Assembly: GCA_028689205.1 (NCBI GenBank)
Contig: JAQTWP010000006.1
Span: 1-64,000, forward strand
Direction of reading: 5' to 3'
DNA: 64,000 nucleotides
Source of the DNA: Candidatus Altimarinota bacterium
GTDB taxonomy: Bacteria > Patescibacteriota > Gracilibacteria > BD1-5 > UBA2023
Part shown: one piece after another, positions 28,676 through 50,927 of the stretch
Layout: each line of letters opens with the position of its first letter
How positions within the stretch are numbered: position 1 is the stretch's first letter
Translations under genes and position numbers: made by a program
Notes under the pieces: generated by a model
Told to the model about the DNA's origin: nothing
Seen by the model: only the letters and a program-made list of their open reading frames with translations
Databases searched by the model: none

Positions 28676-28769
28676 ATAAAACTTTTCAAAAAAAAAAAAC
28701 GTGTACAATATGAAAGTAAAACCTAATATTTATTATTTAGTTTATTTTTAACTTTCTAATTTTATTCAT

Positions 28770-30221
28770 ATGCAAAACATAAAACAAAAACTATCTGTCA
28801 TTTCATCCCCTTCTCCTATCATTTCGACCTTGTGGAGAAATCTATTCACTAAAAAAATACCTTCTCCTCTAAAAATCAAAAACTACCAATCAAAAACTAT
28901 TTGATTCACTCTCGTAGAACTAATAGTGGTAATAGTAATTCTAGCTATACTTAGTACTATTGCTTTTCTTTCTTTTAATTCATATAGTTCTAGTTCTAGA
29001 GATTCTGCGAGATTGTCTGATTTATCTAGTATATCCAAATGATTATCTCTTTATAATGTCGTATCAGGTAAATATCCTAAACCAGATTCATATATAACCA
29101 TTACAGCTTCTTGAACTCCTATTGGATATCAATGAAAAGCTGGAGCTAATGTAATTTCAAATATAAAATGATCTGCAAATTGATTCAGGGATCCTATAGA
29201 TAATAATTCTTATTATACTTATTCTACAAATATAAATCAAAGTAAATATCAACTATTATGATTTCTAGAGGATTCTAATAATATTAGTTTAAGTTTTAAT
29301 TCTCTTTTTTACTCTTGGAAAGATATATGAGGTGAATATGCTAATGCTCTAGATTATTCTAAGAGATTCTCTTTTACTAAATGAGATACTATTGGAATAT
29401 TACTTAGTAGTTGAAGTCTTGATCCTGTAGAGAATCAAAAGAGTGATAGTTTTAGTGGGATTGATATAGTAAATACTACTGGAAGTTATACTGTACAACT
29501 AAATAATAAAATTAAATTAAGTTGAAGTTGAATAATTCAACTTCAACTTTCAATGGAACAATGAAAATATTATACATGGGAAACATGCAATAATTCAGAG
29601 GAGATACAAATCTGAACCCAGTGTTGGAAAAAATATGATCAAAATATTTGAACTTTTACTTGAATGTATATTTCATTATGATGAGTAATGAACATGGATA
29701 TTTTTTTACAAAAATCCATACAATTAAAGTGATTTAAATGGTGCTATAGTGATAATAATAGTAACTGTACTGATAGTTGAACTTGAGCATTTTATACTTG
29801 GGATATGGCAATGAATTGAGAATTATCTTCTAATAATATTCCATCTTGAGTTAAATGAGTGTGTTGAACCTGATTTCATATTCCATCAGATAATGAGTTT
29901 AAGGTAACTGAGAAATATTTATGATGTACCGATTATAAAAATTATTGATATGTTTGTGATTGATTGGGATATAGCTGAAGTTTATCTACAAGTAAATATT
30001 GATGATTATTTAGTAAATTAAATTGATGAATGCAATATGATAGTAATTCATCTATTTTAAATTGATTATTCGGTAGATATTGGACTTCAACAATAACTCT
30101 AATAAAATGAAAAGAAGAATGATATATACAAAGAAGAACTTTTCGGAATTATATGTCTAATGTTACTAATAGTGACGTTTTTAAAATTTATTGATCAAAT
30201 GTTAGATGTTTGAAGGATTAA
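28770..30221 (+). CDS. Type IV prepilin-like protein with Fibrobacter-paralogous C-terminal domain
   Basis: 483 residues. An unusually long leader (~50 residues) precedes the prepilin signature GFTLVELIVVIVILAILST. The leader includes translated DNA that matches a dispersed repeat. The middle has the 'type A' module (SGKYPKPDSYITITASGT). The C-terminal ~180 residues have CNNSEEIQIGTQCWKK, FYTWDMAMNGE, GVCGTGFHIPSDNEFKVTE, YWTST and a final VRCLKD, matching the Fibrobacter succinogenes major paralogous domain. It is likely a minor pilin or surface adhesin. It is first of four tandem paralogues. Confidence 0.82.
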
Positions 30222-30273
30222 TACAATTTAATAAAATTAAAACAAGTTTAATTAAATACCTAACTTCATATTT

Positions 30274-31701
30274 ATGAAAACCAAAAACAATCAACCAAAA
30301 ACTACTATTTGATTCACTCTAGTTGAACTAATAGTAGTAATAGTAATTCTTGCTATACTTAGTACTATTGCTTTTCTTTCTTTTAATTCATATAGTTCTA
30401 GTTCTAGAGATACAGTAAGATTAACTGATGTAGCTAATAGTAAAAAAGCTTTAGAATTATATATTACTAAGGCTAGCAAATATCCTATTCCAGATGAAGT
30501 TGAATTATATGTTGGGAATACATGAAGTGTAATTAGTCAATGAGTACTCTGAGATAATGTAGCTAGGAATATCTGATTAAGTAAAGTAGTAATAGATCCT
30601 TTGACTCAAGGTAAATATACTTATTCTACATTTGGTAATTGATTATATTATCAGATAGCTTCTAGTTTGGAGAATAATGATTGATTGGTAGGATTTAATG
30701 ATTTGGATAGGATGTATTGAAATGGTTTATTTGTAGATGATTTATTTGTACAAAGAGCTAATGCTGTAGATTCTAGTACTTCAACATCTTTTAAGACGAC
30801 TAGGGTTGAATGAAATTATAAAATGGATCCTAGTTTACCTAGTTTGATTGTAGTTCCTAGTAGTGTTAATACTAATTCATGAATATTTGATCCTAGTGTT
30901 TGTTTTGTAGTTGATTGATGAGTTAATACTAGTAATAGTTGATTGGTAGTTAATACTGTTACTAGTAGTTCTTGAAGTTGTGCTAAGAAGAAAGATATGA
31001 ATTTAAAAGATTTTGATAGTAGTTTGGTTGGGTATTGGGATATGGAAACGACTTTTAATAGTTGATGAAAAATTTGGATAAAAGATAATTCCTGATATTG
31101 AAATGATGTTTTTTGAAGTGGAATTACTATTAAATATGAAACTTGATGAATAATTAACAATGCAATTGAATTTAATTGAGAATGATTATCTCAAACATGA
31201 TATTATGAATCTGAAAAAATGATGTGAAATATTTTCAATGATAGCCTAACAATGTCTGTTATATTTAGAAAAAACAATGCTTTTGAAACAAAATATCAAA
31301 AATTGATTTTAATTTGAACTTGATCAACAAAAAATAACTTTCTTGTATGAATTTCTCAATGAGATATTAATTATAATTTTTATTGAATAATTTGGCCAGA
31401 AAGCTATACTTGAGCATTATATACAAGAGTTTTTACTAAATATCCAAATCCAAACCAACGGAATTTAGCCTCGTTATCATATAATAAATGAGAATTAAAG
31501 TTTTTTTTAAACTGAAATTTAATCTGAAAATCCAATTATACAGCGAGTTGAACTTTTTTAGAAAAGAAAAATCTACCACTAAGGATTGGTTACTGATATA
31601 ATATTGAATATTTTAAATGAATCATCGACGATGTCAAAATCTACAACCGCGCCTTATCTGACTCAGAAATATATCAGCAAGCAAAGATTGCTGGATTTTA
31701 A
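30274..31701 (+). CDS. Type IV prepilin-like protein with LamG-like C-terminal domain
   Basis: 475 residues. It has a short leader (MKTKNNQPKTTIG) and then FTLVELIVVIVILAI. The middle carries the 'type B' module (LELYITKASKYPIPDE, AVDSSTSTSFKTT, SLIVVPSSVNTNS, CAKKKDMNLKDFD). The C-terminus from LVGYWDMETTFNS to IIDDVKIYNRALSDSEI is a LamG/concanavalin A-like jelly roll, a carbohydrate- or protein-binding fold. The gene follows the first paralogue by 52 bases with a conserved leader sequence. Confidence 0.8.
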
Positions 31702-31771
31702 GTCTTAAAGGTTAGAATAAAAATATCTTACAAAAGCCCCCTTATTATTTTTTATATATAATTTCATACTT

Positions 31772-33046
31772 ATGAAAACCCAAAACAATCAACCAAAAAC
31801 TACTATTTGATTCACTCTAGTTGAACTAATAGTAGTAATAGTAATTCTTGCTATACTTAGTACTATTGCTTTTCTTTCTTTTAATTCATATAGTTCTAGT
31901 TCTAGAGATACAGTAAGAATAACTGATATAGCTAATATTTCTAAATGAATATTAGTGCAATATACAGTGTCTGGTAAATATCCAATACCAGACAATTATA
32001 TAATTATTACAGCTAGTTGAACCTCCTTATGATATCAATGAAAAGTATGAACTAATGTAAAGAATATTATTAAAATTTCTGAACCATCAGTTGACCCTCT
32101 AGATAAAACTGAATATACATATTCTACTAATTTATGACAAGATAAATATCAACTACTTTGGTTTTTAGAAGATAACATAGCTTATATAAATAATCCATTA
32201 TTAAATCAAGTATTTGCTTTTGATTACTCAAATAGAAAAGCAAATACAAAATGAGATACATTATGAATACTTCTATCGAGTTGAAGTTTGGAACCTGTGG
32301 AGAATTTAAAATCACTTACATTTACTTGAGTTGATCTTATAAATGAATGAACTTGAAAATATATTACAAAATTATCTAATACAGAAACTATAAATGATAC
32401 TATTCTCTCAAAATATTCTTCTTGATTAGTATGATATTGGGATATGGAAAGTACAACAATTGATTGAAAACTTAAGGATTTAACTTGAAATTGAAATGAT
32501 TTATCAATAAGTTGAGTGATTCAAATTTGAAATTGAGTTTGAAAATTTAATAAAGCAACTTCTTTTGATTGAACTTCCAAATATTTTTATAAAGATAGTT
32601 CAGATTTTAATTTTGATTGAAATTTTACAATTATTGCCTGGGCAAATACATTTACATGATGAAATATTGTTACCAAAACTACAAATTGGAAAGATTGATA
32701 TGCATTGCAAAGAGTTTTTAACAATAAAAACTATTTTACATTTGTCACATGATCATGAACATGATTTGCACCTGCAAATTCACTGAATAATTCTATTTTA
32801 GATAATAATTGGCAGATGGTAAGTTGAATTCATAATAAAGATACTAATATTATCTATATAAACAATATAATGTATTGAACTAAAACTTGAGCTTTATCAA
32901 TAACTACACCTTCGATAAATACATTTAATATTTGATCAGTATGAAATTGATTACATAATTTTAGCTGAATTATTGATGAGGTTCGCATATATAACCGTGC
33001 TCTCTCAGACACAGAAATTAGTGTATTATATAATAATACTAAGTAA
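31772..33046 (+). CDS. Type IV prepilin-like protein with LamG-like C-terminal domain
   Basis: 424 residues. The first ~40 codons are almost identical in DNA to the 30274 gene. The middle is 'type A' as in the 28770 gene (SGKYPIPDNYIIITASGT, LGILLSSGSLEPVENLK). The C-terminus is LamG-like (LVGYWDMESTTIDGKLKDL to IIDEVRIYNRALSDTEI). So it joins the middle of one paralogue type with the end of the other. Predicted to be processed after Gly by a prepilin peptidase. Confidence 0.8.
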
Positions 33047-33074
33047 ATAACTTTTTACATTTAACTTTATATTT

Positions 33075-34577
33075 ATGAAAACTAAAAACTATCAATTAAA
33101 AACTATTTGATTCACTCTCGTAGAACTAATAGTAGTAATAGTAATCCTAGCTATACTATCTACTATAGCATTCCTATCATTCAATTCATATAGTTCTTCT
33201 TCTAGAGATACTGTAAGGTTAACTGATATATCTAATAGTAGAACTGCTTTAGAATTATATATTACTAAAGCTAGTAAATATCCTATACCAGATGAAGCTG
33301 TATTATATACATGAAATACATGAAGTGTTATTAGTCAATGAGTACTATGAGATAATGTAGCTAGGAATATTTGATTAAGTAAAGCTATATTAGATCCATT
33401 AACTCAAAGTAATTATACTTATTCTACATTTGGTAATTGATTGTATTATCAGATAGCTTCTAGTTTAGAGAATGATAGTAGTATTAGTTATAATAATTGA
33501 GTAGTAGAATTTAATAAATGATTGTCTGAGAATTGAAATAATATAATTAATATTCCTGCTTTAGCAGGAATAACTAAACTTGAATTTTTTGATAGTATTT
33601 TAAATGATGCTTTTTTTCAAACAGTAAATGCTGTAGATTCTAGTACTTCATCATCTTTTAAGACAACTAAGGTTGAATGAAATTATAAAATAGATCCTAG
33701 TCTACCTAGTTTGATTGTAGTTCCTAGTAGTGTTAATAGTAATTCATGAATATTTGATCCTAATGTTTGTTTTGTAATGGATTCTTGAGTCAATACTACT
33801 AGTAGTTGATTGATAGTTAATACTGTAGATAGTAGTTCTTGAACATGTGCTAAGAAGAAAGATATGAGTTTAAAAGATTATGATAATAGTTTGGTTGGGT
33901 ATTGGGATATGGAGACGACTTTTAATAGCTGATGAATAGATTATTTGAAAGATTTGAGTGGGAATGGGAAAATTTGAAGTTGATTTTTTTGAATATGAAT
34001 CTGAGATAAAGAATGATTAATTTGAAAATCAACGGGTTTTAATTGAACAAATCAATATTTCAAAATTGATAATTTTTATTCATCATGAGAAATACTAAAT
34101 GAGATAACAATTTCCGCTTTAGTAAAAGTAAATACATATAATCCTTCAGTGGCGACACCATTTATCAGTAACTGGCATACTTGGTCAATTTGAAATCAAA
34201 AAGGCTATTTATTAAGGTGATTTTCTCCTTCAACATCTAGATTTGAAAGCGATTTTTGTTATTATACAAATTATTATACAATGATTTGACCAAATTCAGC
34301 TTATAATGATTTTAATAATCAATATTCAAACAAATGGTTATTTTTAACTTCAGCTTATTCACAAAATTGAACTATAAAAATATATTTAAACGGTATGATT
34401 ATTTGACAATCAAAAAATAATTTACCTTACAAAATATTTACTGATACTTACTTGTTTTTTTGACGAAGTATTATAAATTCATGATATTTAAATTGAATAA
34501 TCGACGATGTCAAAATCTACAACCGTGCATTATCTGATTCAGAAATATCTCAACAAGCAAAGATTGCAGGGTTTTAA
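33075..34577 (+). CDS. Type IV prepilin-like protein with LamG-like C-terminal domain
   Basis: 500 residues. The leader is MKTKNYQLKTIG followed by FTLVELIVV. The middle is 'type B' (LELYITKASKYPIPDEAV, AVDSSTSSSFKTTKVEG, SLIVVPSSVNSNS) and closely tracks the 30274 gene. The LamG region has LVGYWDMETTFNSGGID and ends IIDDVKIYNRALSDSEIS then QQAKIAGF, the same ending as the 30274 gene. Its stop abuts the stop of nrdG on the other strand, with no gap. Confidence 0.8.
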
Positions 34578-35794: not shown

Positions 35795-35888
35795 TGTCAT
35801 CCTGAGCCTGTCGAAGGATAAAATCCATAAGATTTTAATATTTTTTATAACTCTTGCGAGTTAATAGTTCGACAAACTCACTATGACA
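35795..35888. repeat. Palindromic dispersed repeat, TGTCATCCTGAGCCTGTCGAAGG type
   Basis: TGTCATCCTGAGCCTGTCGA at the left is matched by TTCGACAAACTCACTATGACA at the right, giving a ~95-base imperfect hairpin. Relatives are at 36372-36484 and 56904-56998. Confidence 0.78.
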
Positions 35889-35939
35889 TTTACCTATTTT
35901 TTCTAAATCTCTAATATTCTTAGCTCTTAGCTCTTCTAA

Positions 35940-36371: not shown

Positions 36372-36484
36372 TGTCATCCTGAACGCCCGTAGTAAGTACT
36401 CTTGGGTGCCTGTCGAAGTATAAAATCTATAAATTTTAATTTTATAACTCTCACGAGTTAATAGTTCGACATGCTCACTAAGAC
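36372..36484. repeat. Palindromic dispersed repeat, second copy
   Basis: TGTCATCCTGAACGCCCGTA at the left and GTTCGACATGCTCACTAAGAC at the right, with the same TGTCGAAG and TAACTC core as 35795-35888 plus an insertion GTAGTAAGTACTCTTGGG. It lies directly beside the 36261 element and fills most of the gap between the two nrdD parts. Confidence 0.78.
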
Positions 36485-36486
36485 TT

Positions 36487-38688
36487 TTATGCTTGTTGTC
36501 TTAATTCTGCTAATTTTTCTGGATCTTCGGTATATTTTACTCTTGCATCTAGATCTAGTTTTTGACCATGGAATCACATTTCTGCATCACATTTTGGACA
36601 ATAGTCGAACTCTCCTGCAATATATCCATGTTTTGGACATATAGAGAATGTTGGAGAAATTGTAATATAAGGCAATTGGTAGTTGGTAATAACTTTTTTC
36701 ACTAGATTCTTACATGCTGTTGCATCTGATATTCTTTCTCACATATATAAATGAAGAACTGTACCTCAAGTATATTTACATTGCAAATCATTCTGATATT
36801 CTAGAGCTTCAAATGCATCATCTGTAAATCCTACTGGAAGTTGAGAAGAATTAGTATAATAAGGAGCTTCCTGCGTTCAAGCTTGGATTATATTTGGGAT
36901 TTGTTTTTTATCTTCACGAGCGAATCTATAAGTTGTACCTTCTGCTGGAGTTGCTTCTAGATTATATAAATTCCCTGTTTCTTCTTGATATTTTTTTAGG
37001 ATTTCTCTCATGAATTCCATTATTTCAATAGAAAGTTCTTTTCAATACTTTGTAGAAACATTTTCTTTTCAATCAGTGAAATTAAGAATTGCTTCGTTCA
37101 TTCCATTAAGACCAATAGTTGAGAAATGATTTCTAAAAGATTTAAGATATCTGTAAGTATAAGGATAAAATCATCTATCTAACCATTTTGTAAGTTCTTC
37201 TCTTTTTAATTCTAATGAAGTTTTTGCAAGATTCATAAGATATTCGATTCTAGATTTGAAAGCTTCTTTGTCTCATTTGGTATTATAACCAATTCTTGCC
37301 ATATTAATAGTAACTACTCAGATTGAACCAGTCATTTCAGCAGAACCAAAAAGTCAATTTCATCTCTTTAATAATTCTTTTAAATCTAATTGTAGACGGC
37401 AACACATTGAGCGTACTGCTCCAGGAGTATATGCATCAGCGTTTCTAACAGTTTCTGTATTCCCTTCTGCATTTTTTTCTCTTTTGAATTGTGAACCAAT
37501 GAAATTTTGGAAATATGGAAGACCATATTTAGCGGTCATTTCGAAAAGTAGCTCAGTATTAGAAGAATCCCAATCAAAATCTTCAGTAATATTATAAGTA
37601 GGAATCGGGAAAGTAAATACTCTTCATTTAGCATCTCATTTTGTATAGATTTCAATTAATACTTTATTAATAAGATCCATTTCTTTTTGAAGCTCTGAGT
37701 AGTTTTTCTTATATAATCCTTTGTCATAACCTCCAAGATGTAAGGCTTTATCTTTTAAATCTTCTGGACAAACCCAATCAAGCGTAATATTCGTGAATGG
37801 AGTTTGAGTCCCCCAACGAGATGGAACATTTAATCAGAAAACAAAGTTTTGAAGATTTTGATATACATTTTTGTATACTTTATCAGTAATGAATTGTTCT
37901 TTTACTGCTTCTGAATCGAATTTCATTGCATATTTTTCAATATCATTTCTCACTTCTTCTTCATATTTGTGTACGAACGGAGCAAGATAAGTATCAAAAG
38001 ATGAGAAAGCTTGAGCTCAAGCCCATTCATTTTGCAGAGTTCCAAGGAAATTAATCATTTGATTTACTGCAGCTTGAAGATTTCTAGGAGGAGAAGATTC
38101 TATTCTATTTGGAGCACCATTGAATCATTCTTCAAGAAGTTGACGAAGTGACCAACCGGCACAATATCCACAGAACATATCAAGATCATGAATATGATAA
38201 TCTCAATTACGGTGATTATTACCAATTTCTGCAGGATAAACGTGAGATAACCAGTAATTTGCAGTAACTTTACCAGATACATTAAGAATAAGTCATCCTA
38301 AAGAATATCCAGAATTAGCATTAGCATTAACTCTCCAATCTGTTTGATCTAGATATTCATCCATTGTTTTACCTACTTCAACAACAACATCTCTATCATG
38401 ACGAGCCTCTGTTCTTTTTTGACGATAAATAATATAGTTTTTTGCAACTGTATCATGTCAGTGTTTTATTAATATTTCTTCAACTTTATCTTGTATCATT
38501 TCTATATCTGGTACATTTTTACCAGCCACAACTTCTACTCTTTCGATTATTTTATCTGTAAGGTCTACAACCTCTGAAAAATCTTTTCATCCTGCAGCTT
38601 CGATAGCCTTTTTAAGTGCATATTCAATTTTTGATCTATCAAATGTTACAATAGCTCAGTTTCTTTTTCTTACTTTATAGATTGCCAT
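36487..38688 (-). CDS. nrdD: Anaerobic ribonucleoside-triphosphate reductase, large part
   Basis: 733 residues. An N-terminal ATP-cone (VRKRNGAIVTFDRSKIEYAL) for allosteric control precedes the catalytic barrel with NGDYHIHDLDMFCGYCAGWS, FGLNVPSRWGTQTPFTNITL and SMCCRLQLDLKEL. The zinc-site region ICPKHGYIAGEFDYCPKCDA is followed by a unique tail ending AELRQQA. The usual glycyl-radical loop is missing from this polypeptide and is found in the gene at 35940. It reduces NTPs to dNTPs without oxygen. The upstream region has two NrdR-like boxes. Confidence 0.93.
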
Positions 38689-49505: not shown

Positions 49506-50927
49506 ATGCATAATTCACTAAAAACCAAAAACAAAACACTAAAAATTAATTTCTGATTCACTTTAGTTGAGCTCCTGATTGCAGTGACGCTTTCTGCACT
49601 TTTAATGACTTCTGTAATGATATTTACCTGAGCAAATATTAGGAATTCAAAAAAAAATGAAAAAATACTTTCGAATTCTAATAAAAATTACAGTTTTGAA
49701 ACCAAATTATTAGAAGTAACTGGGAATATTGATACTAATTGAATATATAATTCTTGAAGTAGTTTTTGAAGTTATTCAAGTTGAATATTTTTATCAACAA
49801 AATGACCTAATCTACCTATTACATTTATTGGAATAAAAACATTCACAGGTTTTTGTGATTCTTTTTCATGATCAGCAAGTGCAACATGAACTATTAATAG
49901 GCTTGTAATTAAAGAAATGCTCTCAGAAAATAACTCTCATTCGTGAACTACCAATTATTATATCAATAGAGATAAAAATTCTATCTATACTTCTTGATCA
50001 ATTCTTGCTGTTTGAACATGATTAAAATGAAATAGTCTTAGTAGTAGCTGAACCTGAACAGAACTTAATAATCCTTCGGCTATAATTGAGAATTCTGGTA
50101 TTCTATATATTGCAGATTCATGAAATAATAGAATTCTATCATATGTAATATCAACTGGTGGAATATATGAAATTGCAAATAATAAAAACTGAATATCTAA
50201 TCCTACGGATATATATTATTCCTGAGCTTTATATATAACCAATGCTTGAGCCTGAAATATTATAAAAATTACAGATTGAATGTGAACTTGAGATAAATTA
50301 GATACTTCATTTAAAGTCCCAAAAAACATTACTTTTGATAAAATTGAATTTATCTTCAATTGAATTGCAAATATATCTAGCCCAACATCTAGTTGAAGTT
50401 TTACTTTTAGTTGAATAAGCACGGGTACAGAAGATATTGTCAGTACTTGAACTACTCTAACTTACTTTTTTTCTTGAACAACAAGGACTATTAATTCTTG
50501 AACTACTTATTGAGTTACAATTAATTCAATATCTCCATATCCAACTTCTACTTGATCATATTCCGTAAAAGTTAATTTCCTATCTTGAGTAATAGTGCAG
50601 GATAGTCTTAATTTGCCATATTTTATCAAATGAGATTGAATTACCACCACAATGAAGTGAAATACTATAGAAGTACTTAGTTGATGAATTATCTACCCTA
50701 ATAATATCACATCAATAACTGCGCGGGATTCAACGATTACTAATTACAATAGTTTGCTTAATAATTCATTCTGAATAAAAACAATTAGTGAACTTCCTAT
50801 AAAAGATTTTAATTATAATGTAGATTGAAATATCTTAAGTATAAAAGTTAGCTACTACAAATATTATGATTGTCTGAATGAAAAACATATTATAAAAGAA
50901 AAAATCTATAAAAAGCTTTTGAAATAA
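49506..50927 (+). CDS. Type IV prepilin-like protein with NHL-like repeats
   Basis: 473 residues. The leader MHNSLKTKNKTLKINFG precedes FTLVELLIAVTLSALLMTSV, a prepilin N-terminus different from the tandem set at 28770-34577. The middle reads PSAIIENSGILYIADSGNNR and NPTDIYYSGALYITNAGAGN, typical of NHL/beta-propeller blades. The rest is Ser/Thr/Gly-rich beta structure. It is probably surface-exposed after prepilin peptidase cleavage, perhaps a minor pilin or adhesin. Confidence 0.75.

Follow-up and report, generated by a model that had tools for sequence, protein, structure and literature searches.

A tandem array of modular type IV prepilins with a mosaic history in a Candidatus Altimarinota genome

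Four consecutive prepilin genes (g1 to g4) in a 64,000-nt stretch of a Candidatus Altimarinota genome, hereafter the window, are the largest tandem cluster of a modular prepilin family that probably provides a type IV pilus adhesin repertoire with layered diversification. A sequence-only reading of the window had described the array and proposed that recombination or gene conversion produces variable adhesins from it. Most of that description held, and to it we add a family dispersed over the genome, a poly-A promoter-like element and a retroelement.

The genome uses TGA as a glycine codon (genetic code 25), with 34-38 in-frame TGA codons in each array gene. The array ORFs vanish under table 11, and table 25 restores all four at exactly the coordinates given earlier, each a full ORF with a start. 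TGA usage differs widely within a single GTDB family: in a comparison of secY (G014 and G018 versus G019-G024), some family members have 28-30 in-frame TGA codons and others have none. The array genes and their modules are as follows.

28770..30221, + strand: g1, modular prepilin, 483 aa, type A middle, FISUMP (C-type-lectin-like) head
29019..29504, + strand: type A middle (pilin body) of g1, 54% identical to g3
29604..30215, + strand: FISUMP domain of g1, Pfam match, dissimilar to the template of the diversity-generating retroelement described below
30274..31701, + strand: g2, modular prepilin, 475 aa, type B middle, LamG head
30424..31023, + strand: type B middle of g2, 69% aa and about 88% nt identity to g4
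31237..31671, + strand: LamG domain of g2, about 38% aa identity to the g4 head
31772..33046, + strand: g3, modular prepilin, 424 aa, type A middle, LamG head
32567..33022, + strand: LamG domain of g3, tail ...LYNNTK, as in G002 paralogs
33075..34577, + strand: g4, modular prepilin, 500 aa, type B middle, LamG head
33225..33890, + strand: type B middle of g4, g2-like
34041..34550, + strand: LamG domain of g4, Pfam match

The intergenic gaps are 52 (g1-g2), 70 (g2-g3) and 28 nt (g3-g4), and the sole forward terminator-like site found for them is weak and lies within the end of g2, suggesting that g1-g4 are likely carried on a single transcript. All four proteins match N_methyl (PF07963) above the Pfam cut-off and carry a class III signal peptide with the N-methylation motif GFTLVEL, including Glu5 (GFTLVELIVVIVILAILS), as expected from the earlier description of four consecutive prepilin-like genes.

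The C-termini had been read as LamG-like in three genes and Fibrobacter-paralogous in one, and a domain search recovers exactly this distribution above Pfam cut-offs in all four genes. The head of g1 matches FISUMP (PF09603, 3.1e-12), the family that we take to be InterPro entry IPR011871, and those of g2, g3 and g4 match Laminin_G_3 (PF13385; 3.2e-14, 2e-17 and 2.6e-15, respectively). When the LamG members are searched as a profile, the N-terminal part hits solved chains of geopilin, PilE1 and GspG, and the C-terminal part hits LamG-type domains from sialidases and from an S-layer-domain protein. We assign the head folds from these profile matches because the predicted structures of g3 and g1, made from 10-sequence alignments, were unusable (pLDDT 32 and 39).

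The middles alternate A/B/A/B along the array, as previously noted, with 54% aa identity between g1 and g3 (type A), 69% between g2 and g4 (type B) and about 30% between the types. Type A occurs with both kinds of head (g1 with FISUMP, g3 with LamG), again in agreement with the sequence-only reading.

The mosaic history of the array is clearest at the N-terminus. Over the 114 nt from the cleavage site, g2 and g3 are 99% identical and g1 is 91-92% identical to both, so the near-identical N-terminal DNA reported earlier for all four genes applies to g1-g3. It does not extend to g4, which shares 84-85% with the other array genes and here most resembles dispersed paralogs (91% identity with C14:134k), despite its g2-like middle. 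Two exact matches mark this region.

28944..29003 (g1), + strand: 60-nt pilin helix segment, identical to 30352-30411 (g2) and 31850-31909 (g3)
30284..30420 (g2), + strand: 137 nt, exact match to 31782..31918 (g3), inferred to result from gene conversion

In codons 1-50, 48/48 same-residue codons are identical between g2 and g3, compared to 28/45 past the N-terminus (p 6e-7). For g2 and g4 the pattern is reversed, with 32/48 identical in the N-terminus and 140/155 in the middle (p 3e-4). Since paralogs bearing the same N-terminal peptide differ at 20-40% of codons, the g2/g3 identity exceeds what protein conservation would leave. Up to alignment column 82 the informative sites among g2, g3 and g4 group g2 with g3, and from there on they group g2 with g4 (z 8.19, 0/5000 permutations). 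Together, the topology switch and the synonymous-site contrast indicate gene conversion of the N-terminal block between g2 and g3, supporting intragenomic recombination as the source of the mosaics, within one genome that is the sole representative of its genus among those compared. Such recombination may be continuing in the array. For exchange between the array and loci elsewhere in the genome, the evidence is no more than suggestive: a conversion test on the 114 nt alone gave a pair p of 0.001 and a global p of 0.16. In the C14:117k paralog, 56 nt of N-terminal coding DNA exactly match g2/g3.

In Neisseria pilE/pilS antigenic variation, gene conversion acts among pilin genes sharing an N-terminus. 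The array resembles this system in that N-terminus-sharing pilin genes appear to have undergone conversion, but differs in that conversion has affected the conserved helix and not the variable part. We rejected a Neisseria-like system of silent 5′-truncated cassettes because all four array ORFs are complete and the broken dispersed paralogs retain their 5′ ends.

A separate signal concerns the heads of g2 and g4, which are 38-39% identical compared to 69% for their middles. Identity to G022 is 36% for the heads and 38% for the middles, so that the g2 and g4 heads are hardly closer to each other than to those of another genus. In bit scores, the g4 head matches a G022 head (90.5) almost as well as it matches the g2 head (95.5), whereas the type B middles score 277 between g2 and g4 and 114 to G022. 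Synonymous positions agree at 140/155 sites in the middle and at 34/53 in the LamG region (p 5e-5). These comparisons strongly suggest that the g2 and g4 LamG heads either have a history apart from their middles, through replacement, or have diverged much faster. A further breakpoint considered in the tail of g2/g4 (codon 450) was dropped, as synonymous sites give p 0.61 and the tail is probably just conserved. A scan of the genome contigs for close relatives of g4 yielded just two matches, a distant LamG prepilin and a weak one.

The combinations themselves appear to be older than the array. Type B middles with LamG heads and the same tail (...QQAKIAGF / ...QQARIAGF) occur in G021 and G022, and type A with LamG (...LYNATK, of the tail form ...LYNxTK) occurs in G002, all of the same GTDB family; type A with FISUMP occurs in a paralog on contig C11 of the same genome. 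As the A+LamG and B+LamG combinations are present in other genera, module mixing seems largely inherited and the pairing of middle and C-terminus mostly ancient. Thus, the recombination proposed earlier is borne out by the mosaics, including the g2/g3 block, and not by the pairing of modules. The secY-exonuclease pair just upstream of the array is kept in most genomes of the GTDB family, usually without a prepilin after it, although in G002 and G019 a prepilin gene directly follows secY. With this neighbourhood conserved and most relatives lacking an array there, the array is a lineage-specific gain. G002 has 45 matches to long prepilins of this kind, and on its contig C153 LamG prepilins lie adjacent to each other.

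About 25 long prepilins with the same N-terminus are dispersed over the contigs of the genome. By profile matches, heads in this family include FISUMP, Lcl_C, fibrinogen-like, BspA LRR, beta-helix and cadherin-like domains, as well as FecR, Listeria-Bacteroides repeat and FGE-sulfatase-like domains. Two paralogs are no longer intact: a frameshift within a short A run disrupts C14:117k (L024:5183-7232), and only 129 aa remain of C6:67.8k. A prepilin peptidase is encoded at C14:215916 (PF06750, 1.4e-23). The family also carries short palindromic interspersed elements, one of them in the array.

28818..28844, + strand: palindromic element ATCATTTCGACCTTGTGGAGAAATCTA, in the part of g1 encoding the cleaved leader peptide

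Further copies of this element lie at L026:6374, L029:3277 and L034:4377, and short palindromic elements are also present in the prepilin leaders of L024 and L026 and in linkers. Insertions in cleaved leaders or linkers would scarcely disturb the mature protein.

Upstream of g1 lies a promoter-like element in which a homopolymer sits between a putative -35 and a putative -10 hexamer.

28676..28720, + strand: promoter-like element ATAAAACTTTTC-A12-CGTG-TACAAT-ATGAAAGTAAA, upstream of g1
28683-28688: TTTTCA (putative -35)
28688-28699: A12
28704-28709: TACAAT (putative -10), after a 15-nt spacer

A genome-wide pattern search for the element core found five exact copies, 5/5 upstream of prepilins, compared to none for the reversed pattern. 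A sixth copy, with one mismatch and A16 (L155, C14:157526), precedes a 194-aa putative exported protein that has no Pfam match and by eye resembles phage tail-collar proteins. Among the six copies, which allow length comparison between paralogs only, the A-tracts measure 10, 12, 14, 16, 16 and 18-19 nt, and the flanks are conserved. In 365.6 kb of the genome, mostly regions around prepilins, A/T runs of at least 9 number 22, compared to about 89 expected from a first-order model; apart from the prepilin tracts, long A/T runs are thus about four-fold depleted despite a G+C content of 28%. All four A/T runs of at least 12 in this sample are tracts of this element upstream of prepilins. The only long microsatellite in the sequence examined, (TGCT)26 at L029:7027-7130, precedes the retroelement-target prepilin on contig C11 at a distance of about 86-190 nt. 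The TTTTCA and TACAAT hexamers are a weak promoter match, and promoter-like sites in the region are no commoner than chance. The placement of the copies upstream of surface-protein genes, in a genome poor in long A/T runs, suggests that the element may be a promoter phase-variation switch of the contingency-locus type.

The third candidate source of diversity is a diversity-generating retroelement elsewhere in the genome, arranged as follows.

L029:5490-6941 (contig C11), - strand: target prepilin-FISUMP gene, domain match
L029:5100-5281: template repeat (TR), after the prepilin-FISUMP target
L029:3803-5032: reverse transcriptase, 409 aa, motif LPIGNLTSQ, PF00078 at 8.9e-15
L029:3526-3867: Avd-like protein, NF033474 over the full profile at E 1.2e-15, 57.6 bits versus a curated cut-off of 80

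Over 182 nt, 19/19 mismatches between the TR and the variable repeat (VR, C11:13991-14172) fall at template adenines (Fisher 2e-11), and the reverse transcriptase motif has the [ILV]GxxxSQ form typical of these retroelements. This is the sequence signature of a retroelement that mutates the prepilin-FISUMP paralog. Diverged copies of the repeat, again with a bias towards adenines (p 0.004 each), are found in two remote prepilin-FISUMP genes (C1 and C14:134k). G001 and G002 (one genus) and G023 (another) share the C11 arrangement, and their prepilin-FISUMP targets likewise differ from the template at adenines only; in G019 the locus lies at the end of a contig and its target lacks the start. 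From these gene arrangements, the anchor of the retroelement target in this bacterial family is a predicted type IV prepilin. We considered g1 as a target and rejected it, as it gives no meaningful alignment to the TR and is absent from the genome-wide TR matches; by similarity to the TR, no retroelement action was detected on the array genes.

We propose that the prepilin peptidase would process the array prepilins into minor, probably tip-exposed type IV pilus subunits, whose LamG or FISUMP heads would bind host or partner surfaces. This agrees with the adhesin function suggested earlier, in that adhesin-type heads on pilins fit the family, and a host-attached lifestyle for the bacterium is plausible. 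The element upstream of g1 would drive one g1-g4 transcript, and a change in A12 length could alter promoter spacing and so turn the cluster up or down. The repertoire would have diversified by old duplication and domain fusion, by N-terminal gene conversion, for which g2/g3 provide the evidence, and by replacement or very fast divergence of LamG heads (g2/g4), with FISUMP paralogs elsewhere in the genome diversifying via the retroelement. That conversion and head replacement, promoter switching by poly-A and tetranucleotide tracts, and hypermutation of FISUMP heads by the retroelement all act together in a combinatorial pilus-tip repertoire is a more tentative proposal, to which we give slightly less than even credence.

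Ordinary tandem duplication and divergence, with purifying selection on the pilin helix keeping the N-termini alike and no special diversification system, would account for middle and head combinations that are old and common to several genera, and modular pilins with LamG or FISUMP are common.PMC8179133 We consider this unlikely, because the synonymous sites contradict it (g2/g3 48/48 versus 28/45, g2/g4 32/48 versus 140/155) and the topology switch speaks against a single history. Could the mosaic instead have arisen during assembly, the genome being metagenome-derived? By our reasoning, an identical block of 137 nt comes close to the short-read k-mer range. A repeat misjoin, on the other hand, cannot itself create identity between two N-terminal blocks, the ORFs are all intact, and related LamG prepilins are also adjacent on G002 contig C153, making an artefact very improbable.

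A stronger competitor concerns the poly-A tract, which could have a fixed role in the promoter, as a UP-like or bent-DNA element that the paralogs inherited with one promoter, and involve no switch. A-tracts are able to activate promoters, and the tract flanks are conserved among paralogs, so this reading is a serious possibility, though not the one we prefer. It does not readily explain why tract length differs in nearly every copy while the flanks stay constant, why the genome otherwise avoids long A/T runs, why the element is also found at one other surface-type gene, or why the retroelement-target paralog has the (TGCT)26 tract upstream instead. As to function, the prepilins might be pseudopilins for DNA uptake or secretion and not for attachment. 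GspG, GspH and ComGC profiles do match, weakly and within the shared N-terminal helix, whereas large lectin-like heads that vary among many paralogs, and retroelement mutagenesis of one head type, are better suited to recognition of variable surfaces; we regard pseudopilins as improbable. Our preferred reading remains that of a layered pilus adhesin repertoire.

Each of these mechanisms is already known elsewhere, and their joint use on one pilus-adhesin family would be the new part; we did not find such combined use on a CPR pilus-adhesin family in the open-licence papers searched. Modular type IV pilins are represented by PilB and PilC of Streptococcus sanguinis, which combine IPR012902 with an extra module,PMC8179133,PMC9934059 PilC being a lectin with a ConA-like head.PMC9934059 PF13385 and IPR011871 are among the 15 commonest modular-pilin architectures, with one example protein from Gracilibacteria.PMC8179133 Like PilB and PilC, the array genes have a class III prepilin N-terminus and a grafted head, and they carry the extra C-terminal domain, not pilus-specific, that defines modular pilins (PF09603 in g1, PF13385 in g2-g4). 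Unlike PilB and PilC, which are few and encoded in one pil locus, the family here comprises some 25 dispersed paralogs plus a tandem mosaic array and is accompanied by a poly-A promoter element and a retroelement. In the Saccharibacterium Nanosynbacter lyticus, the minor pilin PilX2 is required for host binding.PMC12206443 Both cases would involve large, bulky-headed minor pilins in a patescibacterium; PilX2 differs in its beta-propeller head, its single gene and its class.

The closest parallel to the promoter-like element is in the Vlp lipoproteins of Mycoplasma hyorhinis, whose vlp genes are switched by a poly-A tract in the promoter.PMC10502178 Both are surface-protein families with poly-A in a promoter or promoter-like region. 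In our case, length variation is between paralogs, the proteins are pilins and not lipoproteins, the element heads some members only, and its switching is putative. The retroelement resembles those of CPR bacteria in its IGxxxSQ-type reverse transcriptase, Avd-like protein, adenine-specific TR/VR changes and C-type-lectin-like target C-terminus.PMC8144416 The CPR survey described retroelement targets without recognisable anchors or domains, as is usual for those of its CPR clade 2,PMC8144416 whereas the targets here are prepilins in three genera. Pilin-linked targets are not wholly new, as putative pilin structures have been linked to DUF1566 targets.PMC6642488

The question of how ultrasmall, host-dependent bacteria recognise their hosts and keep up with them becomes testable through this locus and its family. 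If our reading is correct, a layered repertoire would let an ultrasmall bacterium track changing host surfaces, and prepilins would be the surface anchor hitherto missing from at least some CPR retroelement targets.

Two other features of the window lie outside the array. A prepilin-like gene of 473 aa with 40 TGA codons is present at 49506-50927 and shows no close kinship to the array genes. Between nrdG and nrdD, a REP-like 50-nt direct repeat occurs at 35843-35892 and 36440-36489.
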